A DNA stretch of 64,000 nt from Thalassotalea sp. HSM 43 (GTDB taxonomy: Bacteria; Pseudomonadota; Gammaproteobacteria; Enterobacterales; Alteromonadaceae), in NCBI RefSeq assembly GCF_004752005.1, contig NZ_CP038493.1, positions 1,760,302 through 1,824,301 of the forward strand. Reading direction: 5' to 3'. Under the pieces are notes generated by a model. That model was not told the origin of the DNA. It did no database searches and was given only the letters and a program-made list of their open reading frames with translations. Shown in pieces: positions 2,636 to 31,121 of this stretch. Numbering within the stretch: position 1 is the stretch's first letter; every line of letters begins with the position of its first letter. The translations under genes and the position numbers were made by a program.

Positions 2636-4084
2636 ATGCCAGATAATAACAATAAATCACGCCGGCAGTTTTTAAAGCAAATATCAGCGCTATCTGCATC
2701 GATGGCGGGCGCTAGTGCTACCGGTTGGTCGCAGCTCGTACAAGCCAGCACATTGAGCGCAGAGCAACAAGACTTTAAAGCCTTAGTTTATGTTTTCCTT
2801 GCCGGTGGTAATGATAGCTTCAACACCTTGATCCCCCATGGCGACAGTGCGTTACGCCGCAATTATGAACACGGTCGTCGCAGCATAGCAATTGCCAACG
2901 AGCAATTACATCCGTTGCAATTGCAAGACACTGCTAATGTATATAACGATACCGAATACCAAGGGTTTGGCTTACATCCATCTTGTGGTGATTTGGCGAC
3001 CTTGTTTAATCAACAAGAAATGGCCTTTGTCTGTAATCTAGGTAACCTCGTAGAACCAACAAGTCGCGACGCAATTTTAGACAAAACCGCCAACTTACCA
3101 CCACAACTTTATTCACACAGCGATCAACAATTGCAGTTTCAAAGTGAGCCAGTGAAACCCTTTCGCCATGGCTGGGGTGGCCGTATGGCCGAGTTATTGC
3201 AAGACTACAACCAAAGTACCAATATATCGCCACTGATATCATTGTCAGGTTTAAACAGTTTTCAAGTAACCCGTAATGGGCAACCTTCTACCTATGCCAT
3301 GAACCATAACGGCGCAATCGCGTTAACGAAATACACGGGGAATCGAAAGTGGTTGGTCAATCAAAATTATCAACATGTGGATGAGTCATCGCATTTGATG
3401 ATGCAAAAATATCGCGATATTTTTTCATCAGCCCAACAAGCCGAAGTCATTGTCAATAGTACCTTTACTAGTGCTGCACAAAATGGTGTCGACTACGACG
3501 ATATATTTAGCAGCGCCGGCGCCAATGACAGTAAAATAGGCCAATCATTAAAAACCATCGCGAAAATGCTTGCGGGACGACAAGCACAAACCAATAATCG
3601 ACCGGTTTACTTTGTCGAAATGGGTGGTTTTGATACCCATCAAAACATTCTCATTAATCACCAAGCACTGCTAAAAGAATTAAACGACGCCTTACATGCA
3701 TTTCGCAATGCTTTAGTCGCCCAAGGCGACTTTGATAATACCTTGACCTTTATTGGCTCAGAATTTGGTCGAACCTTAACCCCAAATGGCAACGACGAAG
3801 GCACTGGCACCGATCACGCTTGGGGCGGACATGCCATGGTGCTTGGCGGTATGGTCGATGGCGGTAAATTGTACGGCAGCCATCCAGATTTAATGTTACG
3901 TCAGGGCTTGGATGCCAGTGATGGCCGCGGGCGCTGGATTCCGACCACTGCCACCACACAAGTGAACGCCATTATGGCCAATTGGCTTGGTGTCGAAAAG
4001 ATCGCCCTGCCATCGTTATTTCCAAGCATTAATAACTTTAGTGACCCATTTGCCAGTGCAGCAAATCTGGCATTTTTAAAGTAG
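2636..4084 (+). CDS. DUF1501 family protein, Tat-exported (pair 1)
   Basis: A 482-residue protein of the DUF1501 family, whose biochemical role is unknown. The N-terminus has a twin-arginine signal (SRRQFLKQ followed by an Ala/Ser-rich hydrophobic segment ending near residue 38), so export in a folded state is likely. Family landmarks are FLAGGNDSFNTL near residue 55, GGFDTHQN near 330, SEFGRT near 375 and GTDHAWGGHAMV near 390. Pfam places DUF1501 in the alkaline phosphatase-like clan, and these D/H/E motifs could be metal ligands; no CxPxR formylglycine motif is present. It sits 10 bases upstream of a DUF1800 lipoprotein, the usual partner of this family. A second, diverged pair lies at 25130-27642. 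Any role in polysaccharide use is inferred from context. Confidence 0.88.
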   Translation: MPDNNNKSRRQFLKQISALSASMAGASATGWSQLVQASTLSAEQQDFKALVYVFLAGGNDSFNTLIPHGDSALRRNYEHGRRSIAIANEQLHPLQLQDTANVYNDTEYQGFGLHPSCGDLATLFNQQEMAFVCNLGNLVEPTSRDAILDKTANLPPQLYSHSDQQLQFQSEPVKPFRHGWGGRMAELLQDYNQSTNISPLISLSGLNSFQVTRNGQPSTYAMNHNGAIALTKYTGNRKWLVNQNYQHVDESSHLMMQKYRDIFSSAQQAEVIVNSTFTSAAQNGVDYDDIFSSAGANDSKIGQSLKTIAKMLAGRQAQTNNRPVYFVEMGGFDTHQNILINHQALLKELNDALHAFRNALVAQGDFDNTLTFIGSEFGRTLTPNGNDEGTGTDHAWGGHAMVLGGMVDGGKLYGSHPDLMLRQGLDASDGRGRWIPTTATTQVNAIMANWLGVEKIALPSLFPSINNFSDPFASAANLAFLK

Positions 4085-4094
4085 AGGCAGAACA

Positions 4095-6719
4095 ATGAAG
4101 CATATTAAATCAAGCGTTGCAGTCGCTTTAACGATTCTGCTTAGTGCCTGTGGTGGCGGATCAGGCGGCTCCAAGAATGATCCTGTCGCTAAGTCTCCCG
4201 ATCCAACACCAAGCGTCAAAATCGAATCTCTGCTCAATCAAGCCGTGGAAGCAAATGGCCAGGTTGCCAAGTTTAAGATCAGCCGCGATAGCGGTACCGA
4301 GAGCCTAACAATTGGTTATCAGCTGACCGGTAATAGTGATATCACCCTAGGCTCTGCCAATACACAGGATTACAATCTAAAATATGCGGATGGCAGCGAT
4401 GTTGGCGCCAGTTTTGTCATAGAAGAGAATCAAAATTCACGCATTATCGAAGTTGTGCCAATTCAAGATGAACAGCATGAAGTTCCAGAAACATTGTCAG
4501 TAACGTTAACTCAAAATAGCCAATACATTCTTGGGCACAGCAACATCGACATACAGCTTATTGACGATCAAGACAGTGCCCAAAGCCGTAAAGTTTTCTA
4601 TGGTACCTTTAGACCACAAGGCGATGCACTTACCTCGGCGTCTGGTGTTCTAAGCTTTATTCTTGCCGGCGACAACTCACATGGCTATTTAAACTATTCC
4701 TTTTCAAATCTTAGCTCGGAGCAAACCGATCAACACATTCATGTTTCGCCTTCAGGTCAAGCAATAAAAGATATAGAGCCTTTTGGTAACGTAAGTAATC
4801 TTGAGTGGGATCTGTCCCCTGGCGGTATTTTTAAAACGCAACAGGAGATGTTAGACGCGTTATTTTCAGGCCTATTTTTCGTCAACATTCACAGCGCCAA
4901 TTATGCTCATGGCGAAATTACCGCCACGTTGCAATACGATGAAAATGTCGCCCCAGTGCAACAAGGTGAACTGACTAAAACCGATGTCGACCGTGACGTT
5001 GTACGGTTTTTAAATCAAGCCAGCTTTGGCGCAACACCTGAATCATATCAGCAACTTAGAGCGCAGATTAATGACGATGGCAGCAATCGAATAGCGATAT
5101 ACAATCAATGGATAGAACAACAAATTAATATCGATGCTAATTCCATGCTGGCATTAACAGAGCAGATTAAACCGCATTTTGCGCTTGGCAATAACGGCGA
5201 AGGAGAAGATGGTTGGAACATACGTCGTGATGCTTTTTGGAATATGGCGATTCATGGTAATGATCAGCTAAGGCAGCGTATGGCGTTTGCTTTAAGCCAA
5301 ATATTGGTGGTCAGTGATGAAACGCAAAAACTTAAAAACGCCTACAAGGGCACGGCAAATTATTGGGATTTATTAGCAAATCAGGCGTTTGGCCACTATA
5401 ACCAGCTATTAAAAGACGTCACCTTAAGCCCCATCATGGGTATCTGGCTGAGTCATTTACGCAACCAAAAACAAGATGCTGAAAATGGCTATTTCCCAGA
5501 TGAAAACTACGCCCGAGAAATCATGCAATTATTTAGTTTTGGCTTAGTTCATCGTAGTGCCAACGGGGCAGTCAAATTGGGCGCTGACAATTTACCTATG
5601 CAAACCTATGACAATGACACCATTCGTAATATGTCACGAGTTTTCACCGGCTTGTCCTTTAGCCATAAGCTTAGCGACGGTGTGAAAAAAGAGAACTATT
5701 GGTTTTTAACCGGAGACTGGGTGGCTGAGCAACAATACCGTTGGTTAGAGCCAATGAAATTTTTTAGTGAATTTCATGACTTCGAACAAAAGCAATTGTT
5801 TAGCGATAATGGCAACACCGTCATAATCGATGAGGGCGTCAATCATACCAGCCAAGCCGCTATGACCGAGTTAGACCAAACCATCAATGCGCTGGTTACT
5901 CATTCGTCAACAGCACCGTTTATTTCACGCCAACTGATTCAACGTTTGGTCACCTCAAATCCGAGTCCAGCCTATATTGAGCGTGTCGCCACCGCCTTTG
6001 CACAAAATGGCGATTTAAAGGCGACAGTGAAGGCAATTTTACTAGATCCTGAAGCGAGAAACCCACATGCGTTAAACTCAACAACATTTGGCAAAGTAAA
6101 AGAGCCTATATTGCACATGACAGCAATGATGCGGTTATTTAATGCCCGTTCGGGTATCCCCTTAAACGAGCAACAAAACGGCTTAAATTTAGCCGTTAGT
6201 GACGGCTATGCTAGTCACGCCAGCCTCTTACGTCTAGGCGATTTACCAATTGCACAACGAGCGCTAGGGGCAGCATCAGTGTTTAACTTTTACTTACCGG
6301 ACTATACACCGGCCGGCGAACTTGCCAGTCAGTCTTTGGTCGCGCCAGAGTTGCAACTGCAAACAGAGTCCCAGTTATACACCAATATTAATCTCTATTA
6401 TCAATTTATTTATTCGGGTTTGTCTCGCTGGCGTGTGGAAAACTTTACCAATTACAGCAAAGCGCAATTAAGTGTAAAGTTCGATGAGCAACACCTTGAA
6501 CAACTTTGGCAGTCAAGCAATGGCGATAACAGTAGTAAAGCGCAAGCATTAATCGATTATGCTGATTTTTACTTACTTGCTGGGCAATTGGCTGCCAATA
6601 ACGAGACACAAATCAGCGAGCAATTGGTTACTGCACTCGATGATTTAGCGCCAGAGTATCGATATAAATTACTGCTCTATGTGATCAGTGCGTCACCTCA
6701 GTTTATATTACAGCGATAA
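4095..6719 (+). CDS. DUF1800 lipoprotein with Calx-beta-like and CHRD domains (pair 1)
   Basis: An 874-residue envelope protein of unknown biochemical function. The signal peptide ends in a lipobox (LLSAC, Cys19) followed by a Gly-rich linker. Residues about 45-155 look like a Calx-beta domain, ending in acidic, calcium-binding-type text (DEQHEVPETLSVTL). Residues about 165-280 match the CHRD domain pattern (FYGTFRPQGD ... QHIHVSP ... NIHSANYAHGEI). The rest is a DUF1800 domain beginning at VVRFLNQASFGATPE, with DENYAREIMQLFSFGLV as its signature. It is tightly linked to the DUF1501 gene and probably forms an operon with it. The extra N-terminal domains, absent from the second DUF1800 protein at 26281-27642, may bind a partner or polymer outside the cell. 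Confidence 0.85.
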   Translation: MKHIKSSVAVALTILLSACGGGSGGSKNDPVAKSPDPTPSVKIESLLNQAVEANGQVAKFKISRDSGTESLTIGYQLTGNSDITLGSANTQDYNLKYADGSDVGASFVIEENQNSRIIEVVPIQDEQHEVPETLSVTLTQNSQYILGHSNIDIQLIDDQDSAQSRKVFYGTFRPQGDALTSASGVLSFILAGDNSHGYLNYSFSNLSSEQTDQHIHVSPSGQAIKDIEPFGNVSNLEWDLSPGGIFKTQQEMLDALFSGLFFVNIHSANYAHGEITATLQYDENVAPVQQGELTKTDVDRDVVRFLNQASFGATPESYQQLRAQINDDGSNRIAIYNQWIEQQINIDANSMLALTEQIKPHFALGNNGEGEDGWNIRRDAFWNMAIHGNDQLRQRMAFALSQILVVSDETQKLKNAYKGTANYWDLLANQAFGHYNQLLKDVTLSPIMGIWLSHLRNQKQDAENGYFPDENYAREIMQLFSFGLVHRSANGAVKLGADNLPMQTYDNDTIRNMSRVFTGLSFSHKLSDGVKKENYWFLTGDWVAEQQYRWLEPMKFFSEFHDFEQKQLFSDNGNTVIIDEGVNHTSQAAMTELDQTINALVTHSSTAPFISRQLIQRLVTSNPSPAYIERVATAFAQNGDLKATVKAILLDPEARNPHALNSTTFGKVKEPILHMTAMMRLFNARSGIPLNEQQNGLNLAVSDGYASHASLLRLGDLPIAQRALGAASVFNFYLPDYTPAGELASQSLVAPELQLQTESQLYTNINLYYQFIYSGLSRWRVENFTNYSKAQLSVKFDEQHLEQLWQSSNGDNSSKAQALIDYADFYLLAGQLAANNETQISEQLVTALDDLAPEYRYKLLLYVISASPQFILQR

Positions 6720-8256: not shown

Positions 8257-8303
8257 CCTTAATGTTGCGCAGTTATTGTCGTAATGTCATCGCTTTAAAT
8301 AAA

Positions 8304-8330
8304 AAAGGCTTCTCACGATGAGAAGCCTTT
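8304..8330 (-). terminator. Rho-independent terminator after the surface protein gene
   Basis: A perfect 12-bp inverted repeat (AAAGGCTTCTCA / TGAGAAGCCTTT) with a CGA loop. On the minus strand it is followed by a T run (the complement of AAATAAAAAA at 8297-8306). It lies 18 bases past the stop of the leftward 1246-codon gene, which fits its terminator. Confidence 0.9.
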
Positions 8331-8347
8331 CGATTTGGTTTAGATCA

Positions 8348-18390: not shown

Positions 18391-19845
18391 ATGAAAGCAA
18401 TAAAACCCTTCTTTATGGCGATTGCCTTTTTAGCGGCAAGCCAAGCAATTGCAGCGGACAAGCCCAATTTTATCGTTATATTAACCGATGATCAGGGCTA
18501 TGCAGATGTCGGCTTCAATGGCAGCAAAGACATTCGTACACCTAACATTGATCGCATAGCCAATGAAGGGACAAAATTCAACAATGGATACGTGACTTAC
18601 GCGGTTTGCGGGCCAAGTCGAGCCGGGTTACTGACCGGGCGATATCAAGGACGATTTGGCTTTGATCGCAACCCACACATGGATCCAAATGATATAAATG
18701 CCGGTGTGCCTCTGGAAGAAAAAATGATTTCAGAAGTATTAAATCCTGTTGGTTATACCTCCAGCATTATTGGTAAATGGCATATGGGCACCCATGAAAA
18801 ATTACGCCCCAATCAACGTGGTTTTGACCACTTTTACGGATTTCTATCAGGTGGTCACAGATATTTCCCTGAAGATTTGATTTATCAAGATGTGGAGCAA
18901 GGCTTAGCTCAAGAAAATCCCAAAAAGCGTTGGTTGTCTTGGTATTACACCAAGATTTTAGAGAACGAAAAAGTTGTTGAAACCGATGAATACCTCACCG
19001 ATGAATTATCCAACGAAGCGGTCGAATTTATTAAACGCGAACAAGATAATCCATTCTTTTTATACTTAGCCTACAACGCACCGCATGCGCCTATGCAAGC
19101 AACGCAAGAATTACTTGAGCGTAACAAACATATCCCTAAAGGTAAGCGACGCACCTATGCTGCTATGATAAGCGCCGTAGATGATGGCGTTGGTCGTATT
19201 CTCGATACGCTTGAACAACAAGGTATTGATGACAATACGCTAGTCATTTTTCTGTCTGACAATGGCGGACCGGAAACAAAAAATGGTTCCGATAACGGAC
19301 TGTTACGCGGCGCAAAAGGTGATTACTTTGAAGGCGGTATTCACGTGCCATTTGCCATGCGTTGGCCCGGTACGATTCCACAAGGACAAGTATATGAACA
19401 CCCGATTAGTTCACTGGATATCATGGCAACCTTTGCCGGTATAACAAACGCACCAATTGCCAAAGATAAGCCTCTAGACGGTGTTAACTTGCTGCCATAT
19501 CTAACCGGTGAAGATAAAAGTGCGCCTCATGACATCTTATTTTGGCGTAATTTTGACAAAGGCATCCTAGCCGCAAGACAGGGTAAAGACAAAACCATTT
19601 TATTTAAACGCAAGGATCAAAAGCACTTATATGATTTAGACAATGATTTATCTGAAACAACGAACTTATATAAATCGAATACCGATACATTTGATAAACA
19701 AAATGAAGAGATGCAAGAATGGGAGTCTGAGTTAGCTGAAAAGCCTGCTTTTAAAGGTTTGATTATTGCAAAAAAAGAAAATCAAAAACAAACTAAAGCG
19801 TATAAAGCTGAGCAAAATAAAAATAAACAAAAAGGCAGTAAATAG
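18391..19845 (+). CDS. S1 sulfatase, S1_19-like, Lys-rich C-terminus
   Basis: Predicted exported sulfate-ester hydrolase of 484 residues, a close paralogue of the sulfatase at 950-2410. The signal peptide covers residues 1-22. The formylglycine cysteine is Cys73 (VCGPSRAGLLTGRYQG), with ILTDDQGYADVGF before it and IGKWHMG, APHAP and FLSDNGGPE after it. The C-terminus is again basic and low in complexity (AEQNKNKQKGSK). The two paralogues differ most near residues 165-190 and in the substrate-side loop after the FGF motif, so they may act on different sulfate positions or oligosaccharide lengths. The stop TAG shares its G with the GTG start of the GH116 gene, so coupling is very tight. The subfamily name is a family resemblance, not a search result. 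Confidence 0.93.
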   Translation: MKAIKPFFMAIAFLAASQAIAADKPNFIVILTDDQGYADVGFNGSKDIRTPNIDRIANEGTKFNNGYVTYAVCGPSRAGLLTGRYQGRFGFDRNPHMDPNDINAGVPLEEKMISEVLNPVGYTSSIIGKWHMGTHEKLRPNQRGFDHFYGFLSGGHRYFPEDLIYQDVEQGLAQENPKKRWLSWYYTKILENEKVVETDEYLTDELSNEAVEFIKREQDNPFFLYLAYNAPHAPMQATQELLERNKHIPKGKRRTYAAMISAVDDGVGRILDTLEQQGIDDNTLVIFLSDNGGPETKNGSDNGLLRGAKGDYFEGGIHVPFAMRWPGTIPQGQVYEHPISSLDIMATFAGITNAPIAKDKPLDGVNLLPYLTGEDKSAPHDILFWRNFDKGILAARQGKDKTILFKRKDQKHLYDLDNDLSETTNLYKSNTDTFDKQNEEMQEWESELAEKPAFKGLIIAKKENQKQTKAYKAEQNKNKQKGSK

Positions 19846-22586
19846 TGCCTTGCAAGCCGGTAATTGAGCAACAAAATCGTTCTTGCTGTCAACCCAACAA
19901 CGGGGTAGACCTGCAACGTCGAACACTGTTAAAACGTGTTAGTGCCGGCGTCGCTGCCATGTCGACTGGTGTGTCGATGCCCATTATGGCAGGCCCTTTT
20001 AATAGCGATAATGAATCTAAAAATGATTCTGAAGGACCTATTCCTGTTGATAAGAAGCTTGACCAACAGTGGTTAAAAACACTTGTTGTACGAGGTAAGC
20101 CAACGACATATCGTGGTTGGCAACAATTGCAATATATCGGTATGCCCGTCAGTGGTATAGGGACTGGCACCGTGTATGTTGGCGGTGATGGCAAGCTGTG
20201 GGTATGGGATATTTTTAATGAAAACCATGAAGGCGTAGTACCGCAGACATTTCAACATTCCGAATTAAGAAATGAACATGGTGATAGTGACATTAAAGCG
20301 CGAAACGGTGCCAATTATATAAACCCTCCTGCACAAACAAGTCCGTGGCACTTTAATCAAGGGTTTGCCATCACGATTGCTCAACACGGAGAACAACTAA
20401 GACGAACCTTAGATAATAATGGTTTTAGTGATATCAACTTTACCGGGCAAATGCCAATAGCCGAGGTACAATATAATGACCGTTATGCCAATACGTCGGT
20501 TTCATTAGAGGCGATGACGCCTTTCATTCCACTGGATAGTAATCGTTCGAGTTACCCTGCGACAATTATGCGCTATAAGATCACAAATGAAAGTGACGCT
20601 CCGATCGATATAGCGTTTGAAGCCTGGTCTGAAAACCCCGTTTTGCAGGGACGCGCGAATCACTATCGTGCCGAACTGGTAGCCACTGAGTTTTCCGACA
20701 AAAACGGCGCAGGATTTATCTGTGGTTGCAATGGCCAAAATACCGCGGCGCAACACACCATTAGCACACGTGCCGATTATGGCTCGTTTGCCTTGTATTG
20801 CCTAAACCGCAATGCTCAAGTCCGTTTAGATAAACGTAATGAAAATGGCATTGCTATTCATCAGGTCGAATCAAAATTGACCTTGGCGCCAGGGCAGACA
20901 GAGCACGTGACATTTATTGTTGCCTGGCATTTTGCCAACCAAAAAGCGCTGTGGAAAAAGCAGCATAGACAACACAAGCGTTGGTATGCGTCTAAATACA
21001 GCGATGCAATGGCTGTTGCACTCGATGTTGCTCAATCATTTGACCAATTGTATCGTTTAACTAAATTGTGGCGAGATAATTGGTTTGCTTCTTCTTTACC
21101 ACACTGGCTACTTGAACGAACAATCATTCCAACCAATGCATTACAAACGAATACCTCATACCGATTAGATAACGGTCGTTTTTGGGCATGGGAGGGGATA
21201 GGCTGCTGCGCTGGCACCTGTGCTCATGTGTGGCATTACGCGCAAGCTGTGGGACGTTTGTTTCCCGATTTAGAGCGGGATTTGCGGGAGCGAACCGACT
21301 ACGGTATTGGCCAAAAAAGTAACGGCGCAATATCTTTTCGTGGCGAATATGGAGAAAAAGATGCCACCGATGGTCAAGCAGGCATAATTTTAAGAACCTA
21401 TCGTGAACATCAAATGAGTCGCGACAGTGCGTTTTTAAATCGCGTTTGGCCTAATGCCAAAAAAGCGATGCAATATCTCATTCTTGTTGATGCCAGAAAT
21501 GGCATGCCTGACGGGATCCCTCAAGGTGAACAACACAACACCTTAGATGCAGAATGGTACGGTAAAATCCCGGTGCACGGATCCTTGTATATCGCAGCGC
21601 TTAGAGCCTGTATTGAAATGGCCAGCATTGTTGGCGATGATGAGTTTAAGACCCTTTGTACGGGCATTTATACATTAGGCAAACGCAACATTATTAAATT
21701 ATTTAATGTTGAATATGGCTTTTTCACCCAACAAATTGATCCAAACCACACCAATGCCATAGGTATTGGCGATGGCTGCTATATTGACCAAGTCATGGGG
21801 CAATGGTGGGCTAGTCAGCTTAATCTTGGTCGACTCTACGACGGCGAGATTATAAGGGCTTCATTAAACAGTCTGTGGGATTATAACTTTTGCCCTGACG
21901 TTGGCCGGCTAAGGGACTCTATCGAAAATCCGAAAGCGAAAGGGCGAACATATGCGTTAGCCGGAGAAGCGGGTCTGGTGATGTGCACTTGGCCTAAAGG
22001 TGGACGAGCAGACGACTGGCAGCAGTATTGGCAATACGGTTACTTTAACGAGTGTATGACCGGTTTTGAATATCAAGTTGGCGGTCATATGATATGGGAG
22101 AGTGAGTATGACCCAGAGCTATTAACCAAAGGGCTGGCCATCACTCGCGCTGTCCACGACCGTTATCAGGGCGATAAAAGAAATCCGTTTAACGAAATAG
22201 AATGCTCCGATCATTACGCCAGAGCGATGGCTTCGTATGGGGTATTTTTAGCCGTATGCGGATTTGAATATGACGGACCAAAAAAACACATTGGATTCAA
22301 ACCAAGGCTAGACAACAAGGGTTATTTTAAAGCTGCTTTTACCAGTGCTGATGGTTGGGGAAACTTTGAATGCAAAGACAATTTGGTGCGATTAAGCATT
22401 CTCTATGGTGAGTTAGAACTAGCGACTTTATCGCTACGAATAAAAATTAAAGGTCTGTTAAAGCGCCACATAGAAACAGACTTTGGCGACGCGGTTGTCT
22501 CAACAAAAGGGGCCGATATTAATGTCCTATTTACGCAAAACATCATTGTTAAATCGGGGCAGGTCTTAACCTTTTCGCTTGTCTAA
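19845..22586 (+). CDS. GH116-like (GBA2/DUF608) glycosidase, Tat-exported
   Basis: A 913-residue protein of the GBA2/GH116 type, a family of beta-glucosidases, beta-xylosidases and related exo-enzymes. The start is the GTG at 19845, overlapping the previous stop (TAGTG). A twin-arginine signal (QRRTLLKR, then an Ala/Ser/Gly-rich stretch to about residue 50) indicates Tat export. The N-terminal beta-domain has GIGTGTVYVGGDGKLWVWD. In the alpha-barrel, the nucleophile candidate is Glu450 (FWAWEGIGCC) and the acid/base candidate is Asp568 (HNTLDAEWYG), followed by SLYIAALRACIEMA. The usual family text around the nucleophile is replaced by a Cys-rich GIGCCAGTC, so specificity may differ. Its place after the GH-A and S1 genes suggests it trims a desulfated product. 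The substrate is unknown. Confidence 0.85.
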   Translation: MPCKPVIEQQNRSCCQPNNGVDLQRRTLLKRVSAGVAAMSTGVSMPIMAGPFNSDNESKNDSEGPIPVDKKLDQQWLKTLVVRGKPTTYRGWQQLQYIGMPVSGIGTGTVYVGGDGKLWVWDIFNENHEGVVPQTFQHSELRNEHGDSDIKARNGANYINPPAQTSPWHFNQGFAITIAQHGEQLRRTLDNNGFSDINFTGQMPIAEVQYNDRYANTSVSLEAMTPFIPLDSNRSSYPATIMRYKITNESDAPIDIAFEAWSENPVLQGRANHYRAELVATEFSDKNGAGFICGCNGQNTAAQHTISTRADYGSFALYCLNRNAQVRLDKRNENGIAIHQVESKLTLAPGQTEHVTFIVAWHFANQKALWKKQHRQHKRWYASKYSDAMAVALDVAQSFDQLYRLTKLWRDNWFASSLPHWLLERTIIPTNALQTNTSYRLDNGRFWAWEGIGCCAGTCAHVWHYAQAVGRLFPDLERDLRERTDYGIGQKSNGAISFRGEYGEKDATDGQAGIILRTYREHQMSRDSAFLNRVWPNAKKAMQYLILVDARNGMPDGIPQGEQHNTLDAEWYGKIPVHGSLYIAALRACIEMASIVGDDEFKTLCTGIYTLGKRNIIKLFNVEYGFFTQQIDPNHTNAIGIGDGCYIDQVMGQWWASQLNLGRLYDGEIIRASLNSLWDYNFCPDVGRLRDSIENPKAKGRTYALAGEAGLVMCTWPKGGRADDWQQYWQYGYFNECMTGFEYQVGGHMIWESEYDPELLTKGLAITRAVHDRYQGDKRNPFNEIECSDHYARAMASYGVFLAVCGFEYDGPKKHIGFKPRLDNKGYFKAAFTSADGWGNFECKDNLVRLSILYGELELATLSLRIKIKGLLKRHIETDFGDAVVSTKGADINVLFTQNIIVKSGQVLTFSLV

Positions 22587-22881: not shown

Positions 22882-25047
22882 CTACTGTCCTTGACTACGC
22901 AGTGAGTTATAAACTTTTTGGAAGTATTGCATGCTTTGCTGATCGTTAAGCTTGCGAGCATAGCTGACCCCTAATTCAAACAATTGCGGGTCATAATTAT
23001 ACTTGCGCAAGGTCGATTTTATTTGTCTTAAGGCTTTTTGTGTTTGTCCTAGCGAGTCTAACGTCAAAAAGTACACCAAGGCATATTGCGGATTGCTTGC
23101 TTCATATTTAATGGCTTTATTAAACGCTGACAAGGCCGACTGTTTGTTACCTGCACGAATTTGATGCATACCGAAACTGTAATTAAGTACGGCTGATGTT
23201 GGGTTTGTTTGCAGTCCTAGGCGATAGGTTGCTGTTTCCTGCTGCGCTTGCCCTGTGTTGCGGTACAGCTCAGCCAAGTTGACGTAAGCGGATTCAAAAT
23301 AGGGGTCGATGTTGATACTGTGTTGTAGCGACGCAATCGCTTGTTTATATTTGCCTTGATTGGTATCGAGTAAGCTTTGATTCAAATTTCCTTCACCTCG
23401 CCAAGCGCTCATCGCATTGGCGTGCAATAACTCTTGATAGGCTTTAACAAACACGGCGTTACTCTCCATCCCTGTCGCCACTAGATGCTCAGCAGCGGCG
23501 ACACGCACCGCTTTATATGCGTCGTTTAACAAGTCCTTATAAGCATGCAACCGGTCTTCAATAGCTAACAAGTTCCCCATTTTGGCTGTCGCTAAGCGCA
23601 GCAATGGTAGGTCGGAATTCAACCATGGCTGGATCATAGCGTCTGTTAACGGCTGCCCGGTATAACGCCAATGCATAATGGCACTGGCGCGTTTTATCTC
23701 GGCTAAGGTTGTATCATTTATCATCTGCAAATGTTGCTCAGCTGATACATATTGGCCTGCCATTAAGTGAATAAAATCTAGCTCACTCTGGCTTTGTGCC
23801 TGTGGCTTACCATGCAATTTAACAAGACTTTCTGCCGCCCATTTATTCGACTTGTCATCATGACAATTCTGACAGGCGCTTGGTATATCAAAGGTGTCCG
23901 CTAAATGTGGACGAGGAATGGAAAAACTGTGATCACGACGCTCGTCGACACCCATATAGGTGCGCTCAGGCATATGGCATTCAACGCATTGACTGCCGGC
24001 ACTGGTTAAGGCATGACCTGTATGTTTTTCCGATTGATAATTGTCACTGTTATGACATTGCAAACACAATCCATTATCTGGGATTTTAACCTTCATTGTG
24101 TGCTTGTCGTGGCAATCCAAACAATTCACACCGGCCTGATGCATTTTACTTTGTAGGAATGAACCGTAGACATAAACCTCTTCTTTAATTTGACCATCGT
24201 CAAAGTACAAAGGCTGCTCTAATAATGACGGGCTAAATTGATCGAGAAATGCGGTGCTAGCACTGATGCCATCGGTGAGTGGCGAACGCAATGAGTGACA
24301 AGCAAAACAACTGTCCATAAAAGCATTATCACGCTTATCACCGACCCATTTAGCAATCTTTTCACCGCGAGATAATTGCCAACCACCGACCAACTTATCT
24401 ACCGTAGCCAGAGACGGCTTTGAATGGTCATCAGCCATTTCACCGTGACATGACTGACATCCGACATTGATATTGTCCCAAGACGTATCAAATCTATCTT
24501 CAGCAGCATTATAATTGCGTTTTAAACCATCCGAGTGACAGTCAGCGCACATACCATTCCAATTTTGTAATGGTTGTCGCCAGTGCAAACGGTCTTGTGG
24601 CTTAATTTCTTCTTGTTGATAAATATGATACCAGCGCTGCCCCCCTTGATTTTCTGGACGCGTATCCCAGGCAAAGGGAACGATATGGTAACTTCCAGGT
24701 TTGGTTTGAACCAAATATTGCTGCAGTGGGTAATGACCGAAGGTATATTCTATTTGTAGCGATTGCGCTTTCTCACCGTAATCTATATCGAGCCAGTATT
24801 GGCTGTCGCCGCTAACGTTTTTGCGATAAAAGCGCGCCTTTTGGCCGTAATGCTCCACCTTAACATCATCAAAATTAGCCAACACGGATGTCGGGCTAGC
24901 CTTCGCCATCGCTTTGGCATGATCGGATTGTTGCCAGGCATTAGTCTGCTCACTGTGGCAGCTAACGCAGTTTTCAGGACTGGCAATGGATGGTAAAGAC
25001 TGCAGTGAAAACAACAGCAACGAAAGGGAAAATAGAATGCGTATCAT
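22882..25047 (-). CDS. Octahaem cytochrome c with HEAT-like and TPR regions
   Basis: A 721-residue exported electron-transfer protein. The signal peptide covers residues 1-22. Eight CXXCH haem c sites start at Cys 27, 167, 197, 247, 309, 328, 354 and 392; extra conserved histidines (for example SDHAKAMAKA and KHTGHALTSAG) could be distal ligands. Residues about 420-530 look like HEAT-type helices, and about 555-715 are TPR repeats (ASLQHSINIDPYFESAYVNLA). Multihaem-TPR cytochromes of this kind are widespread, but their partners are mostly unknown. It lies downstream of a DUF1501/DUF1800 pair, 83 bases past the DUF1501 stop, with a possible hairpin between. A redox link to those proteins is inferred from position only. 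Confidence 0.88.
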   Translation of the reverse strand: MIRILFSLSLLLFSLQSLPSIASPENCVSCHSEQTNAWQQSDHAKAMAKASPTSVLANFDDVKVEHYGQKARFYRKNVSGDSQYWLDIDYGEKAQSLQIEYTFGHYPLQQYLVQTKPGSYHIVPFAWDTRPENQGGQRWYHIYQQEEIKPQDRLHWRQPLQNWNGMCADCHSDGLKRNYNAAEDRFDTSWDNINVGCQSCHGEMADDHSKPSLATVDKLVGGWQLSRGEKIAKWVGDKRDNAFMDSCFACHSLRSPLTDGISASTAFLDQFSPSLLEQPLYFDDGQIKEEVYVYGSFLQSKMHQAGVNCLDCHDKHTMKVKIPDNGLCLQCHNSDNYQSEKHTGHALTSAGSQCVECHMPERTYMGVDERRDHSFSIPRPHLADTFDIPSACQNCHDDKSNKWAAESLVKLHGKPQAQSQSELDFIHLMAGQYVSAEQHLQMINDTTLAEIKRASAIMHWRYTGQPLTDAMIQPWLNSDLPLLRLATAKMGNLLAIEDRLHAYKDLLNDAYKAVRVAAAEHLVATGMESNAVFVKAYQELLHANAMSAWRGEGNLNQSLLDTNQGKYKQAIASLQHSINIDPYFESAYVNLAELYRNTGQAQQETATYRLGLQTNPTSAVLNYSFGMHQIRAGNKQSALSAFNKAIKYEASNPQYALVYFLTLDSLGQTQKALRQIKSTLRKYNYDPQLFELGVSYARKLNDQQSMQYFQKVYNSLRSQGQ

Positions 25048-25092
25048 AAAGGCGTAATTTTATTATTATTGAACGCTAAACCTAACAAAAAC

Positions 25093-25120
25093 GAGCAAAA
25101 AGTAAATAAACTATTTGCTC
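25093..25120 (-). terminator. Possible terminator after DUF1501 (pair 2)
   Basis: Arms GAGCAAA and TTTGCTC enclose a 14-base loop, and on the minus strand the stem is followed by GTTTTTGTT. It starts 10 bases past the DUF1501 stop. The stem is short, so it may only reduce read-through into the cytochrome gene. Confidence 0.45.
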
Positions 25121-25129
25121 ATTTTCCAA

Positions 25130-26272
25130 TTAGCTAACGATAGGGTGAGGATAAATTTGGCAATCAGGAAACACTTTAGCGATTTCTTGTTCACTCATTT
25201 GCCAGTGTTGTTGTAAAGCAGTTGCTATCCAAGAGAAAGTATTGGTGGTCGGCATTAAATCTCGTTGCTTAAACAATTGCTCTGGCGCCAGCCCAGGCCA
25301 CTGGCCTAAGATTTTGCCGCCAGAAACCGCACCACCAAGCAAAAACATCGCACCACCGGTACCATGGTCGGTACCACCAGTACCATTTTCCTTCACCGTT
25401 CGACCAAATTCTGTGGCGATAACAACCACAGTATCTTGCCATTGCTCGGCCAGTTCCGCCTGCAAAGCATCGATGCCTTTGTCGAGCTGCTCTAATTGAC
25501 GCTCGAGACGAAAAGCTTGATTATTGTGTGTGTCCCAGCCACCAAGCTGCAACATCGCACAGTCCGTCGAGCTGTCACTTTTTAACAATCGACCACAGGC
25601 TTTCGATAATTCGACAAAATGACTCTTTTTACTCGCCATATCGCCAGTGACCGCTTTGGTATCGATCGCTTCTTGCAATCGGCTCATTAACTGTTGGTCA
25701 TATTCATACAGCGACAAAAGTGCTTCATAAATATTCTCATCTGCGTCTTTAAGATTTGATGGGTACCATGTACTCACCTTGTCACTAGCTCGCATACTGA
25801 TCGGCACAGAATTGGCCACCGCTAAGCCCTTACTGTTTGGCTGAGTTGTTTGCTCGGTTAATGCCCGACCTAACCAACCAGTATCATGATCCATCGACGG
25901 CAAACCACTTTCCAGATAGTCTTGACCATCAAAATGCGAACGTCTTGGATACCCCGTGCCAACGGCAACCACGGGGATCAGTTGTTTTTGATGATACAAG
26001 CGATGAAAATTTTGCAAAGCAGGATGCAAAGCAAACTGCTCAGTCAGTACCAGTGGTTCGGCTTTAAAGCTTTTTGACAGCTTAGGTCTCAGCGCACTTA
26101 ACCGACTTTCTTGGGTTGGTATGACAGTATGCAATGAATCCATTGCGCCACGTAATACCACCCAAACAAATTTCTTGGTTTTGTTTTCAGCAAGGGCTTT
26201 ACTCAATGCAGGAGCTTGCAACATAAACAGTGATGCTGCCCCCATTGATTTAATAAATTGACGTCTATGCAT
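25130..26272 (-). CDS. DUF1501 family protein, Tat-exported (pair 2)
   Basis: A 380-residue DUF1501 protein, about 100 residues shorter than its paralogue at 2636-4084. The N-terminal MHRRQFIKSMGAAS and its hydrophobic continuation form a twin-arginine signal. Family landmarks are WVVLRGAMDSLHTVIP, QLGGWDTHNN near residue 243, ATEFGRTVKENG near 288 and GGTDHGTGGAMFLLGG near 300. The same D-T-H, E-F-G-R-T and T-D-H motifs appear in both paralogues, which suggests a conserved metal-type site in an alkaline-phosphatase-like fold. The reaction is unknown. It starts 9 bases after the DUF1800 stop and is surely cotranscribed with it. The DUF1800 partner has no export signal. Confidence 0.87.
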   Translation of the reverse strand: MHRRQFIKSMGAASLFMLQAPALSKALAENKTKKFVWVVLRGAMDSLHTVIPTQESRLSALRPKLSKSFKAEPLVLTEQFALHPALQNFHRLYHQKQLIPVVAVGTGYPRRSHFDGQDYLESGLPSMDHDTGWLGRALTEQTTQPNSKGLAVANSVPISMRASDKVSTWYPSNLKDADENIYEALLSLYEYDQQLMSRLQEAIDTKAVTGDMASKKSHFVELSKACGRLLKSDSSTDCAMLQLGGWDTHNNQAFRLERQLEQLDKGIDALQAELAEQWQDTVVVIATEFGRTVKENGTGGTDHGTGGAMFLLGGAVSGGKILGQWPGLAPEQLFKQRDLMPTTNTFSWIATALQQHWQMSEQEIAKVFPDCQIYPHPIVS

Positions 26273-26280
26273 ACAGCCTC

Positions 26281-27642
26281 CTAGCGTCGCATAAATTCAG
26301 GACTAAGCAGCGCTAATGCTAATGCTTGGTCTCGACTTTCAGAACGACTTACCATGTTATACGTAAGGGACGTGTTAGCCAGCGCCAAATTATTATTGAT
26401 GATATCCATCGCCGATACATCAACTTTGGCCACAAGCATGCTAACCCAATCAATTTTGGCCACCAACGCACTGCTACCATCCCAATCCGCTTGTTCATCA
26501 CTGTAGCCCGCCGGTGATCCTGCTTTAAACGGAAGCTGACCTAATTCACGCATGGTATAAGACAACTGTTTTTCTTTATACTGATTTAAGCCCAGTGTCC
26601 TCAACGTCGAGATCACATAATCTCTTGGCGTTTTAAATTTTTGGCGTTGTGGTTGCCAGCTATAATCTGAATCGATCATGGTCGCGACCACAGATTTTAT
26701 ATCGCCTCGACTTGCCATCCATGTATTGACCATGGCATCAACAAGTTTCGGCTCAGGCTTATCCATAATGAAATGTTTGACCATTTTGTGGCATATATAT
26801 TGGGCCGTAGTTGGGTGATTTGCTAAATCCTTTAGCATGGCTAAGCCCTGCTTTATACCTTGCTGTTTGTATGTTTTATCCAATAATCGACGGCTGCCTG
26901 GTTCATGGCCAAAGCTGCGAAATAAAAAGCCCGGCTGTTCATCACGCTGCACCGCGCCAACGCTCCAACCTGTTATGGCTTTGGCCAACTCAATGACATC
27001 TTGTTGATTGTATGGACCGTCAACACCTAAGGTGTGTAATTCTAAGATTTCACGTGCCAAGTTTTCATTGAGTCCTCGGCCTCTCTTGCCGGCTTGCGAA
27101 TTTTTGCCAAATGATTGTTCATTGTTTAAATAAATTAACATAGCAGGGTGCTGCACCACCGCAATCAACAGATCTTCAAAGCGACCGAACAAATTGTTGG
27201 CGATGGCTTCGCGCTCTAACGTCGGTGCCAGTATGAGCATCACAGGGCCTTGGCCCGTTACCGAAAAATGGTTTGAGAAAAAGTCAAGCAAGCGCCAGTT
27301 AATGGTATTGGTAGAGTGTACCGCACCAGTGATACTGCTGACCGACACTTTCTGAAAACTCTGTCGGCTCAGGCGCTGTCTTTGTTGGCGCAACTGTTTT
27401 AATTGCTCTTCGCTTTGCCCTGATTTTTTTGCTTGCCTGTATTGCTTAATCAATTCACCAGCTTTGCTCATCAAGGTATTCGAATCTGGTAATTCATCAT
27501 TAAAAACAACAGGAGTTAAGCCGTGCTTCAAATAGGCCTTTGGATTGCCGGCCGCTAACTGCAACTCTTCGCCGCTACCACCGTAGCCAAAGCGATTTAA
27601 TGCAATTGCCGCGTGTTGATGATTTTTAGCCATACTCTCCAT
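26281..27642 (-). CDS. DUF1800 family protein without an export signal (pair 2)
   Basis: A 453-residue protein that is almost only DUF1800 domain, starting at AAIALNRFGYGGSGEELQL. The family signature ENLAREILELHTLGV is near residue 194, and GFLFRSFGHEPGSRRLL and HPTTAQYICHKMVKHF follow. The function of the family is unknown. Unlike the pair-1 protein it has no lipobox, no hydrophobic signal and no extra domains; an in-frame stop lies about 27 bases upstream of the start, so no longer N-terminus is possible. Met4, preceded by GGAGAG, is an alternative start. Residues 63-83 are Lys/Arg/Gln-rich. It directly precedes the Tat-exported DUF1501 partner, so co-export as a folded complex is possible; this is inference. 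Confidence 0.85.
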   Translation of the reverse strand: MESMAKNHQHAAIALNRFGYGGSGEELQLAAGNPKAYLKHGLTPVVFNDELPDSNTLMSKAGELIKQYRQAKKSGQSEEQLKQLRQQRQRLSRQSFQKVSVSSITGAVHSTNTINWRLLDFFSNHFSVTGQGPVMLILAPTLEREAIANNLFGRFEDLLIAVVQHPAMLIYLNNEQSFGKNSQAGKRGRGLNENLAREILELHTLGVDGPYNQQDVIELAKAITGWSVGAVQRDEQPGFLFRSFGHEPGSRRLLDKTYKQQGIKQGLAMLKDLANHPTTAQYICHKMVKHFIMDKPEPKLVDAMVNTWMASRGDIKSVVATMIDSDYSWQPQRQKFKTPRDYVISTLRTLGLNQYKEKQLSYTMRELGQLPFKAGSPAGYSDEQADWDGSSALVAKIDWVSMLVAKVDVSAMDIINNNLALANTSLTYNMVSRSESRDQALALALLSPEFMRR

Positions 27643-27723: not shown

Positions 27724-29175
27724 TTACGGCCTATTCCAGTTTACCTTGCTTAGTTTTTGCAAAAAGTTTTGAATCATCTCTTTATGGGCTGGATCGCCAG
27801 CCAAGTTATGCCATTCATTAGGATCTTGCAGTAAGTCGTATAACTCATGCTTGCCACTATCAACTTTGGTAAAACGATACTTCTCGGTGACCAATCCATG
27901 GGTACCTTTTGCAGCGGTATAGACGACATTGTCCCAAGCAACATGTTCGCCTTGCAACAAAGGGACTAAGCTTCTGCCATGTAAGTTTATAGTTTTGTTT
28001 GGAGTGCTGTTTGTCAGTTCCATTATCGTTGGATACAGATCGATATTTTGCACCAAGGTGTCAACCACTATGCCTGCTTTACTATTTTGCGTTTTAATCA
28101 TAAGTGGGCTACGCAAAGCAATATGAAATGGCGTGTTTTTACGCCATAAACCGTGATCTGTTAAATGATAACCGTGATCGCCCCAAACAATGATAATGGT
28201 ATTGTCATACAGGTCTTCATCTTTTAATGTCTGAATGATTTTACCCATTTGCGCATCAGCATAGCTGGTGCTGGCCATATAACCTCTGATAAGTTGTTGC
28301 GCAGTATTATCATCCACACCTTCGTTCCAACCAAAGTCGCGTGTTTTACTTTTGTACTTTGCGTTATCAAAAGCCTCTGGAGCACCAATAGGGTAAGGTG
28401 CCAGTTTGCCTGCATCTTGCGGATACATATCGAAGTATTTCTTCGGAGCAACCCAAGGCATATGTGGGCGTGAAAAGCCGGCTGAAATCATAAAGGGTTT
28501 ACTTTTATCACGTTTATTAACGATTAAATCGATAACCGAGCTCGCAGTTTGACCGTCGATAAGCAAGTCGTCAGGGCCGTCCACAGAGGCATACATCAAC
28601 GAGCCAGGGCCTGCCCCCTTGTCTTTATAAATTTTTATCTGATCTTGGCGACCGCCAATGTCGACGATTTTACTTTCTATATTAGGGCCGCCATCTTTGT
28701 ATTTCCCTTGCCAAAATTTACCAGCAATATCCCAAGACTTTTTCTCGCTACCAGGTACTTTGCCATGGTAGAGCTTACCTCGAGTTGCTGTCCAATAGCC
28801 GTTGTCTCTTAATACTCTTGGCCATGTCGTTTGCGCCTTGATCAGGTTCTGATGTTTGTTGTTTTTCCAATCCCCCTGCAAATCAAAACGCACACCGGTA
28901 AGCATCGCCGCGCGCGATGGGTTGCACAAAGGATAGTTAACGTAGGCACGATCAAATCTGACTGCATCTTGCGCAAACGCATCCAAGTTTGGCGTAATAG
29001 GTTCGGGTTCATTGTAGGCGCCAATAAGAGGCCGTAAGTCATCAAAAGCAATAAACAGAATATTGGGTTGTGTTTGCTTGCTCTCGGTGCTGGTCTCTGA
29101 AGCTTGCACGCTACCCCCTATGGCTATACTGCAACAGATGCTGAGGGTAAGTAATGTTTGCATAAAACTGTTCAT
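27724..29175 (-). CDS. S1 sulfatase, iduronate-2-sulfatase-like (S1_7-like)
   Basis: Predicted exported sulfate-ester hydrolase of 483 residues. The signal peptide covers about residues 1-25. The fold begins NILFIAFDDLRPLIGAY, with the formylglycine cysteine Cys84 in YPLCNPSRAAMLTG. GFSRPHMPWVAPKKY and IIVWGDHGYHLTDHG give further active-site His/Asp residues. The DDLRP opening and CNPSR motif are typical of the iduronate-2-sulfatase-like group (SulfAtlas S1_7), which also includes algal-galactan sulfatases; assignment is by resemblance only. It follows the sulfatase at 29187 by 11 bases in the same operon and precedes the DUF1800 gene. It is clearly diverged from the other sulfatases here, so a different sulfate position is likely. 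Confidence 0.92.
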   Translation of the reverse strand: MNSFMQTLLTLSICCSIAIGGSVQASETSTESKQTQPNILFIAFDDLRPLIGAYNEPEPITPNLDAFAQDAVRFDRAYVNYPLCNPSRAAMLTGVRFDLQGDWKNNKHQNLIKAQTTWPRVLRDNGYWTATRGKLYHGKVPGSEKKSWDIAGKFWQGKYKDGGPNIESKIVDIGGRQDQIKIYKDKGAGPGSLMYASVDGPDDLLIDGQTASSVIDLIVNKRDKSKPFMISAGFSRPHMPWVAPKKYFDMYPQDAGKLAPYPIGAPEAFDNAKYKSKTRDFGWNEGVDDNTAQQLIRGYMASTSYADAQMGKIIQTLKDEDLYDNTIIIVWGDHGYHLTDHGLWRKNTPFHIALRSPLMIKTQNSKAGIVVDTLVQNIDLYPTIMELTNSTPNKTINLHGRSLVPLLQGEHVAWDNVVYTAAKGTHGLVTEKYRFTKVDSGKHELYDLLQDPNEWHNLAGDPAHKEMIQNFLQKLSKVNWNRP

Positions 29176-29186
29176 AACGCGCCCTG

Positions 29187-31121
29187 TTATACCTTGATTT
29201 TTCCGCTGATATACAACCAGCGCTCATATATCCAAGAATCGATTTTAAAGCTATCGCTGCCACGAACAGGAGGCTTTAACGTCATCGATGTCGGGACAGT
29301 AAACGTTTCGCCGGTTTGCTCAAAAACAAAAGCGGCAATATTTAGCAGTTCAACCTGTACCAATGGGTTTGGCTCGTGGCTGATCAATTTTGTTAGCTCA
29401 CTGACAGAATCCACTTGTTGTTGTAGAGTGAGAAATTCAATCGCACGGGCTTTTATTAAAACATGCGATGAATTTGTCAACACGTGTTGTACTAAGGTAG
29501 TTTGTTCAGAAGCTTGAGAGCCAAAAGAGCTAAGACTGATAAGACTCCAAATCTTTTGCGCATCAGTGCCGGTGTTTAGGTAATTAACGAGTTTGGCTTG
29601 CACGTCTTTGTATGGCTGTAATTGCAAATCGGCAATGGCGATAAGCTGTTCAATGTTCGGCTGTTGCGCCTGCCCCCATTCAAAGGCCTTGCCTTTACTT
29701 TGTGCTAACCACATCGATTCTGGTAAAAAACCCAAATCAGGCAAGTTTATCAATCTGTGCCGTAATTTCGTTCGCATCGCCAGCAAGGTATTTTGGTAGG
29801 CTTCATCGGTCGCCAGATTATTGGTTTCATAAGGGTCGGCTTCAATATCGTATAATGACTCTGTGCCCGACAACTCAAAAAACGCGCTTTGCGCAGCATT
29901 TAATTTACCTTCGCGATACAGTTGCTTCCATTGTTTAAAGGCGTGTTGTCGATAACGATAATAGGCATACAAACTGTCGCTGTAATACGGTTGATAATGG
30001 CGAATGTATTTATATTTACCAATACGGATTGAACGCACTAAGTCAGATTTTTCATCAAAACGATCAGCGTGTGAAAACGTATTGTTACGTTTATTTAGTT
30101 GCTGCAAACTGAGATCTTTCGCTAAAAAAGATTGACCGTCCATTTGCTTTTCTGCATCTAAACCCGCCAGTGATAACATGGTCGGGGCAAAATCGATAAA
30201 ACTAACAAAGCCGTCAACTCGAGTGTTTTCGCTCGCTAAACCCTTGCCAACTAAATACTTAAAGTTTTCCGGTACTCGTACCACTAAAGGTACATGCAAA
30301 CCACGGTCAAAAAGATATCCCTTACTACCGGGCAACACGCCGCCATGATCACCGAAATAGAAAATAAAAGTGTTTTCCAATTCTCCGTCTTGTTCAAGTT
30401 GTTTAATGACCGCGCCCATTTGCGCATCTGCGGTTTTATGGTTATCTAATGTGCGAGCCATAGTGTATCTAAACAACTCGGTATCTGGGTAGATTGGCGC
30501 TAAGCGGACCTGTTTTGGATCGTGTTTGGTCTTGCGGTTTTGTACTTGGCCTTTATTAAAGTGCAGCTTACCTTCATGGGTAATTCCAAAGGTTTGCACA
30601 TGAAAAAATGACTGTTCCGGTTGACGATTTCGCCAGCTTGCTGTTTTTGATGACTCATCCCACAGCTTATCCTGTGCGATAAAATTGTAATCGGTTTTAG
30701 CACGGTTTGTGGTGTAGTAGCCCGCATCTCGTAGTAATTCATTAAAGGTTTTAAAACCCTGCGGTAACGATACCTCTTGATAACCACGATGATGCAAGGT
30801 ACCAAGTTTCGGCCCATAAATGCCAGTTGCCAATGTTGTTCGTGCCGTTGAGCACACCGGTGCATTGGAAAACGCATTATTAAAGGTCAAGCCTTGTGAC
30901 GCAAGCTTTTCCACCGTCGGCATACTGGTTCCGGCATCATCGTAAAGCTTTAAGTAATGCTTAGAGTTATCTTCGGTAATAAGCCAAAGGATATTTGGCT
31001 TTTTTTCTGGTTTGCTTTGTGCAACTGTTGATTCGGCATGCACAAGACCGGCACTAAGTGCGCTACTCAGTACTAACGAGACTGTTAGAAACTTTGCTAT
31101 CAATAAGTTAAATCTATTCAC
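29187..31121 (-). CDS. Sulfatase with a non-canonical CSTAR formylglycine motif, HEAT-like C-terminus
   Basis: Predicted exported sulfatase of 644 residues, starting at the GTG at 31121. The signal peptide covers about residues 1-29. The fold starts PNILWLITEDNSKHYL, so the second metal aspartate of the usual DD pair is replaced (E-D-N). The modification motif is Cys90 in APVCSTARTTLATG: threonine stands where proline or alanine is usual in CxPxR/CxAxR. YFGDHGGVLPGSKGY and RVPLVVRVPE-type text show the rest of the site is kept. After the sulfatase domain, about residues 500-620 look like HEAT-type helices (IWSLISLSSFGSQ, LIKARAIEFLTLQQ). It lies between the GH2 and S1_7-like genes of the operon, with 17- and 11-base gaps. 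The enzyme is likely active, but its maturation and substrate are uncertain. Confidence 0.88.
   Translation of the reverse strand: MNRFNLLIAKFLTVSLVLSSALSAGLVHAESTVAQSKPEKKPNILWLITEDNSKHYLKLYDDAGTSMPTVEKLASQGLTFNNAFSNAPVCSTARTTLATGIYGPKLGTLHHRGYQEVSLPQGFKTFNELLRDAGYYTTNRAKTDYNFIAQDKLWDESSKTASWRNRQPEQSFFHVQTFGITHEGKLHFNKGQVQNRKTKHDPKQVRLAPIYPDTELFRYTMARTLDNHKTADAQMGAVIKQLEQDGELENTFIFYFGDHGGVLPGSKGYLFDRGLHVPLVVRVPENFKYLVGKGLASENTRVDGFVSFIDFAPTMLSLAGLDAEKQMDGQSFLAKDLSLQQLNKRNNTFSHADRFDEKSDLVRSIRIGKYKYIRHYQPYYSDSLYAYYRYRQHAFKQWKQLYREGKLNAAQSAFFELSGTESLYDIEADPYETNNLATDEAYQNTLLAMRTKLRHRLINLPDLGFLPESMWLAQSKGKAFEWGQAQQPNIEQLIAIADLQLQPYKDVQAKLVNYLNTGTDAQKIWSLISLSSFGSQASEQTTLVQHVLTNSSHVLIKARAIEFLTLQQQVDSVSELTKLISHEPNPLVQVELLNIAAFVFEQTGETFTVPTSMTLKPPVRGSDSFKIDSWIYERWLYISGKIKV

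Follow-up and report, generated by a model that had tools for sequence, protein, structure and literature searches.

A DUF1501–DUF1800 gene pair beside an octahaem cytochrome in Thalassotalea sp. HSM 43: candidate subunits of a Tat-exported metalloenzyme

The locus and its three products

The 64,000-nucleotide stretch of Thalassotalea sp. HSM 43 analysed here (contig NZ_CP038493.1, positions 1,760,302 to 1,824,301; hereafter the window) carries three consecutive open reading frames (ORFs) on the minus strand, which encode a compact 'type A' DUF1800 protein (26281..27642), a DUF1501 protein with a signal of the twin-arginine translocation (Tat) type (25130..26272) and an octahaem c-type cytochrome with TPR repeats (CYT8; 22882..25047). 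The DUF1800 protein, of 453 amino acids (aa), scores 356.1 bits with PF08811 (cut-off 26.1) over almost the full length of the profile (2-419 of 419), and the DUF1501 protein (380 aa) scores 132.7 bits with PF07394 (cut-off 27) over nearly all of it (2-388 of 390). The cytochrome (721 aa) matches cytochrome families and TPR repeats in Pfam. Directly upstream of DUF1800 and on the same strand lie two sulfatase genes (27724-29175 and 29187-31121), whose products score 142.8 and 128.9 bits with PF00884. ORFs and Pfam confirm the arrangement given in the original prediction, with genes of these three families standing in a row behind two sulfatases.

DUF1800 and DUF1501 are separated by 8 nt. The gap between DUF1501 and the cytochrome gene measures 82 nt and contains a strong, terminator-like hairpin (25088..25125, minus strand) with 16-nt arms that are 88% complementary, 6 nt between them and a 3' arm running into a T-run. 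It folds at -20 kcal/mol, with z values of -3.15 and -3.55, and 2 and 0 of 200 shuffled sequences fold as well. In relatives (loci are denoted by L, genomes by G), the corresponding gaps fold far better than their shuffles in L047 and L050 (z -4.3 and -4.6), to an intermediate degree in L042, L046 and L049 (z -2.2 to -2.7) and ordinarily in L051 (z -1.2), part of the gap having been folded in L049 and L051; the gap sequence is not conserved between loci. Because of the hairpin, the cytochrome probably forms a transcript of its own, separate from DUF1800-DUF1501. A single operon for all three genes is weakened by it, with two caveats: a consensus terminator scan, whose yield of 9 terminators does not exceed that of shuffles (6.9), does not list this hairpin, and the L051 gap is ordinary. 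The earlier placement of the trio inside a sulfatase operon is doubtful for the cytochrome.

The DUF1501 protein begins with MHRRQFIK, and RRQFIK is followed by a hydrophobic stretch, so that the proposed Tat-type signal is present. The motifs GGWDTH, TEFGRT and GTDHG are found as described, and the protein has neither a CxPSR-like formylglycine motif nor a match to PF00884. Across 24 diverse DUF1501 sequences, the twin arginine (R3, R4) and residues D45, S112, H113, D247, H249, R291, N296 and H303 are invariant, and D302 occurs in at least 90%. E288 and D302 are invariant in a larger alignment of 53 sequences, made of the two window copies and 51 from 80 named loci after near-duplicates and two cut loci had been left out. 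Among 114 homologues, RR precedes the domain in 112 and is accompanied by a hydrophobic residue and an h-region in 106; the two without RR are a locus cut by a contig edge (L095) and a partial ORF (L137). Signal counts for DUF1501 and DUF1800 include two duplicate loci and rely on a threshold of our own.

A model of DUF1501 built from the 53 sequences (pLDDT 93.3) is predicted to have the alkaline-phosphatase-superfamily fold with conserved ligand-like residues. Foldseek returned 104 matches in the PDB at E ≤ 0.001; the 50 listed belong to this superfamily (E 1e-5 to 3e-4), all but two of them by title, and include YejM/PbgA, LtaS, sulfatases, phosphatases and phosphotransferases. The two others, 2zkt and 5i5d, are entries that we take to be members. 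The predicted fold shares colinear conserved Asp, Ser and His residues with the superfamily, whereas the low TM values (0.25-0.47 among the 50 listed) and the motifs GGWDTH, EFGRT and GTDHG set DUF1501 apart from it. A search of the PDB by sequence gave DUF1501 no match from the superfamily; the hits, all weak, are to unrelated kinds of protein (best E 0.036). Its profile aligns colinearly and weakly with the alkaline phosphatases of relatives (E 0.002-0.005, probability 8-13%), and this weak alignment sets D45 and H249 on what are presumably ligand positions, the ligand names being assumed. Against sulfatases, TEFGR falls opposite the DHG motif (E 0.001, probability 20%), and the two alignments, both weak, place the Asp-His pair differently. 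The membership of the alkaline-phosphatase-like clan that had been proposed for DUF1501 agrees with the modelled fold. The lack of a conserved site, which would have counted against the original prediction, is not what the alignments show: the conserved ligand-like residues would be compatible with a metal site, the metal itself being a candidate.

For the DUF1800 protein, an alternative start is perhaps offered by an ATG at 27633 behind GGAGAG. Its AlphaFold2 model (58 sequences; pLDDT 95.5, pTM 0.94) is all-helical and has no fold match in the PDB at E ≤ 0.001 (best E 0.8); a sequence search of the PDB gave no match at E ≤ 1, and the translation contains no CXXCH. Type A DUF1800 proteins begin close to the domain, and the window copy has no signal peptide. 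A signal-like stretch is absent from all 25 gammaproteobacterial type A ORFs and present in 2 of the 70 others, those two having doubtful long N-termini; for type B and C proteins the count is 14 of 17, with two more just below the threshold and L063 without any, and 13 of the 17 have a lipobox-like match. Because type A DUF1800 lacks a signal peptide, the simplest reading is that it would leave the cell folded and bound to DUF1501, by Tat hitchhiking.

The DUF1800 family also contains a giant protein of 1399 aa with fn3- and transthyretin-like matches (L045, 9382-13581); frames that stay open over 1299-1758 aa exist in six further genomes. A search of viral models by Foldseek gave a single match at E ≤ 0.001, an uncultured-phage DUF1800 family protein (BFVD A0A6J5M749; E 8e-10). 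No pilin-like family was found in the 10 ORFs scanned beside the type B pairs of L059, L060 and L064.

The cytochrome has the eight CXXCH motifs (positions 27, 167, 197, 247, 309, 328, 354 and 392) and the TPR repeats that had been attributed to it. Pfam matches it to Cytochrome_C554/C7/c3 and, at the C-terminus, to TPR; the N-terminus is Sec-like. In combining eight CXXCH with TPR it is like the multihaem TPR cytochromes of the Cytochrome_C554/C7 type, but it scores under the cut-off of every NCBIfam model listed, and in all 47 matches to solved structures the best stretch lies in the TPR part. In the window genome, the cytochrome also has a distant paralogue (36%), which adjoins a sodium/glutamate symporter. 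Twenty further loci of the cytochrome (13 from genomes without the pair, 7 from genomes with the pair elsewhere) include a sulfatase in 7 cases, as the adjoining gene in 3 (L190, L195, L196). Dehydrogenase-, mandelate-racemase-, histidinol-dehydrogenase- and FAA-hydrolase-type genes are found near it in L182, L184 and L197. At L195, the cytochrome lies between a directly adjoining gene for a MauG-type dihaem peroxidase (7496-9133) and two sulfatases.

The island around the trio comprises sulfatases, GH2-type enzymes, a GH116-type protein and a TonB-dependent receptor. The GH116-type protein (19845-22586), with RRTLLK in its N-terminal region ahead of a hydrophobic stretch, may be a further Tat substrate. 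The island holds another DUF1501-DUF1800 pair, which the original prediction does not mention. It is on the plus strand (2636-6719) and in the opposite gene order: a type C DUF1501 with an RR motif (2636..4084; 482 aa; PF07394 130.6 bits) is followed by a type C DUF1800 with a CHRD domain (4095..6719; 874 aa; PF08811 243.5 bits, CHRD 37.5 bits). The 4.01-Mb genome has two DUF1501 and two DUF1800 genes in total, so that both of its pairs are in the window. In the stretches fetched, a sulfatase is found near the type C pair in 4 of 6 loci (the window, L068, L070 and L072; not L069 or L071).

The gene pair across genomes

DUF1501 and DUF1800 form a unit, and their grouping is not due to chance. 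Of 59 relatives, a count that takes in the window genome, 32 carry DUF1800. With the window genome and a broken copy in G007 set aside, there are 35 loci, in 34 of which DUF1501 adjoins DUF1800; the exception, L066, has no DUF1501. A profile search of named genomes yielded at least 592 loci, the best 80 of which come from Bradyrhizobium, Burkholderia, Sphingomonas, Endozoicomonas, Halomonas and others (L074 and L081 being the same loci as L044 and L048). DUF1800 lies directly upstream of DUF1501 in 79 of these 80, and the last one is L095, cut by its contig edge. On plasmids, 53 records match DUF1501, and in the two that were opened (Acidisarcina and Agarilytica) DUF1800 is the preceding gene. 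The unit proposed from the window alone is thereby upheld. Such pairs are already in print (PMC5122149), and the published one is like that of the window in having both families over their cut-offs, adjacent genes and a Tat motif on DUF1501.

Around the best 80 named loci, a profile made from six sulfatases of the window detected no sulfatase in the flanks examined, which measure from less than 0.1 kb to 10 kb per side. The same flanks contain no cytochrome with four or more CXXCH (unlinked partners and those with fewer haems lay outside the search). Because neither a sulfatase nor a multihaem cytochrome is found near these loci, the pair is an independent unit without a general tie to polysaccharide loci. 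Linkage to sulfatases as a general cause of the grouping is rejected on this result (0 of 80 in the flanks examined). In a separate comparison of loci, no neighbour family apart from the pair was shared by more than 9. The enrichment with polysaccharide loci that had been expected is not seen at the 80 named loci; in the window's family there is an association with the number of sulfatases in the genome.

In that family, the tie between the pair and the cytochrome is real at the genome level. Cytochrome orthologues (at least 48% identity) are present in 14 of the 59 relatives, all of which have type A DUF1800, and three more genomes have type A only; these counts include a split cytochrome in G018, broken ones in G007 and G011 and a broken type A DUF1800 in G007. 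In the wider set of 295 family genomes, matches were accepted from 44% identity for the cytochrome (next lower 38%) and from 41% for DUF1800, broken, split and partial copies being counted. Type A DUF1800 is found in 51 genomes and the cytochrome in 68, with 40 genomes holding both, 11 type A only and 28 the cytochrome only. The cytochrome is thus present in 40 of 51 pair-bearing genomes versus 28 of 244 others. By genus (52 in all), 17 have type A, 19 the cytochrome and 15 both. When the type A label was permuted inside each genus (13 informative genera, 125 genomes), 28.2 genomes with both were expected versus 40 observed, a value that 0 of 20,000 shuffles reached; within strata of genus and sulfatase number, 32.9 were expected (p 2e-4). 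In the same-genus genome G007, contig C112 (36325-39606) holds a DUF1800 remnant and the cytochrome side by side, both with in-frame stops.

The pair is also tied to sulfatase number at the genome level in the window's family. The median is 19 candidates in type A genomes versus 6 in others, and at least 20 are found in 23 of 51 versus 10 of 244, all as first-pass candidate counts (full scoring covered at most 7 per genome; in the window genome, 24 of 27 candidates were confirmed). In a rank test within genera, 0 of 20,000 shuffles reached the observed value; 39 genomes without a sulfatase match were entered as 0, and 38 of them were left out of the within-genus tests, G264 being kept as a pair-bearing genome of known genus. 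Twenty genomes were counted in full: the 16 with an intact pair hold 2-69 sulfatases, three pair-less ones of the same genus 0-1 and G007, with its broken copies, 13. A sulfatase lies within about 10 kb of the pair in 5 of the 16 intact type A genomes, where at most 1.7 are expected (P 0.016 if independent); by layout, these five cases amount to three independent sites (L046/L047 and L040/L043 being shared), for which P is 0.23. L046 and its mirror L047 have their sulfatases on the DUF1800 side, L046 together with GH10- and fucosidase-type genes, and L042 and L049 hold the pair and the cytochrome without a sulfatase in 20 kb.

PSCyt2-PSD1 beside DUF1501 in a second family

In another gammaproteobacterial family, PSCyt2-PSD1 takes the place of DUF1800 beside DUF1501. 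A search of 398 Pseudomonadota genomes detected PSD1 in one, and the family of that genome (f50) has 7 such genes in 6 of 150 genomes. All 7 carry a CARCH haem motif, and each lies directly upstream of an RR-bearing DUF1501 gene; the family assignments were confirmed by Pfam in G659. A small protein with one CXXCH and without a Pfam match follows DUF1501 in all six genomes, and in five of them peroxiredoxin-like, cytochrome c4-like, SMP-30-like and cytochrome c' genes come next, none of which was seen in G759. The runs are located at L205 and L212-L216 (shortened in L215). A c-type haem therefore stands beside DUF1501 in two different settings. As in the window, the gene immediately before the RR-bearing DUF1501 encodes a partner, and c-type haem is involved, whereas the haem motif is inside the partner protein here and type A DUF1800 is without one. 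A redox role has been suggested for PSD1/PSC2 proteins in one study (PMC2754498), and another describes sulfatases that are often near PSCyt genes in Verrucomicrobia and suggests a carbohydrate role (PMC5615132).

A candidate exported metalloenzyme and the alternatives

From the pairing, the model folds, the signal motifs and the genome-level associations, we infer a physical complex, a bound metal, hitchhiking, electron transfer and a type of substrate. Tentatively, and with somewhat less than even confidence, we favour a Tat-exported DUF1501-DUF1800 metalloenzyme heterodimer, redox-coupled to the octahaem cytochrome and acting on algal sugars. DUF1501 and DUF1800 would be two subunits of one exported enzyme. 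DUF1501, bearing the Tat signal, would fold in the cytoplasm and take up a metal in its alkaline-phosphatase-like site, and the signal-less type A DUF1800 would be exported as a hitchhiker on it. In the window's Alteromonadaceae-like family, the periplasmic octahaem TPR cytochrome, with its own transcript and often unlinked, would serve as electron partner. The set would use sugars, or derivatives of these, that have been freed from algal polysaccharides; it would come after the sulfatases and glycosidases and would not act on sulfate esters. The side-by-side decay of DUF1800 and cytochrome in G007 counts in favour of this proposal. Of the exported enzyme and electron-transfer complex put forward in the original prediction, the association with the octahaem cytochrome is borne out (40 of 51 versus 28 of 244), and the complex and the electron transfer keep their conditional standing.

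Several observations weigh against such a redox heterodimer. Neither DUF1501 nor type A DUF1800 shows a haem motif or any other redox motif, the profile matches of DUF1501 to phosphatases and sulfatases are weak (probabilities 8-20%), and the best 80 named loci, from other Proteobacteria, show no multihaem cytochrome in their flanks. Even in the window's family, coordinates place the pair and the cytochrome within 5 kb of each other in 15 of the 40 genomes with both. Of the 68 genomes with the cytochrome, 28 have no type A pair, and 11 of the 51 with the pair have no cytochrome; in G011, the pair is open and the cytochrome broken. The identity thresholds were picked after the lists had been seen, and the controls cover genus and sulfatase strata, without genome size or a general polysaccharide lifestyle. 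A homology of DUF1800 to PSCyt2-PSD1 (DUF1549-DUF1553), suspected from a likeness of motifs, received no support from profile comparisons and is kept as a lead: hhalign gave local P values of 0.09-0.4, and 1 of 58 DUF1800 members matches PSD1 (E 0.19).

The strongest rival, which we consider rather unlikely, makes the pair a metallohydrolase or transferase (phosphatase- or phosphodiesterase-like) that is exported by Tat and serves a house function without redox chemistry, and holds that cytochrome and sulfatases are fellow travellers in marine degraders of polysaccharides. The fold neighbours of DUF1501, namely phosphatases, phosphotransferases and sulfatases, speak for it, as do the many pairs in soil- and plant-associated Proteobacteria without a sulfatase or a cytochrome of four or more haems in the flanks examined. 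So do the varied neighbours of the cytochrome away from the pair, among them dehydrogenase, mandelate-racemase-like and other catabolic genes. However, the association between pair and cytochrome holds within genus and sulfatase strata, and haem proteins flank DUF1501 in the second family too.

Quite improbable is a role of the pair in building or anchoring an envelope polysaccharide, as could be imagined from the pairs beside bacterial chitin synthases. According to PMC5122149, Brenneria, Pectobacterium, Dickeya and Agrobacterium vitis have genes for chitin synthase, DUF1800 and DUF1501 that share one orientation and were transferred together, and PMC6329079 lists a DUF1501 gene adjoining a glycosyltransferase gene in Dickeya fangzhongdai. 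The window differs from this setting in its island of algal-polysaccharide type and its octahaem cytochrome, no chitin synthase is present among the 20 window proteins scanned, and the loci compared share no frequent neighbour family other than the pair itself. Least likely is the action on polysaccharide sulfate groups, as a non-formylglycine sulfatase, that the original prediction had also entertained: DUF1501 shares a superfamily with sulfatases, which adjoin it in the window and abound in pair-bearing genomes, a few of them close by, but it has neither the formylglycine motif nor a PF00884 match, the 80 named loci have no sulfatase in the flanks examined, and by layout the close cases come down to three sites (P 0.23).

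Beyond the redox-coupled heterodimer favoured for the window, a more general proposition is conceivable, if improbable. DUF1501 and its partner, either DUF1800 or the haem-bearing PSCyt2-PSD1, might form the centre of a so far unrecognised class of oxidoreductases, exported by Tat, that act on sugars and glycan fragments in the periplasm. Such enzymes might join a metal domain of the alkaline-phosphatase type to an all-helical subunit that lacks a significant PDB match, and pass electrons to c-type cytochromes, and the haem might reside inside the partner in one lineage and in a separate, often unlinked octahaem TPR protein in another.

The retrieved portions of the literature under the names DUF1501, DUF1800 and DUF1553 show no function for DUF1501 or DUF1800. 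The pair was already known; the cytochrome partner and the context are new, and the mechanism is our reading of them. Both families are widespread, and the link to the cytochrome, the signal-less DUF1800 and the parallel with PSCyt2-PSD1 lead to the testable proposal of a Tat-hitchhiking metalloenzyme heterodimer with a cytochrome partner. If true, it would bear on why planctomycetes and verrucomicrobia hold many PSCyt genes, often near sulfatases.

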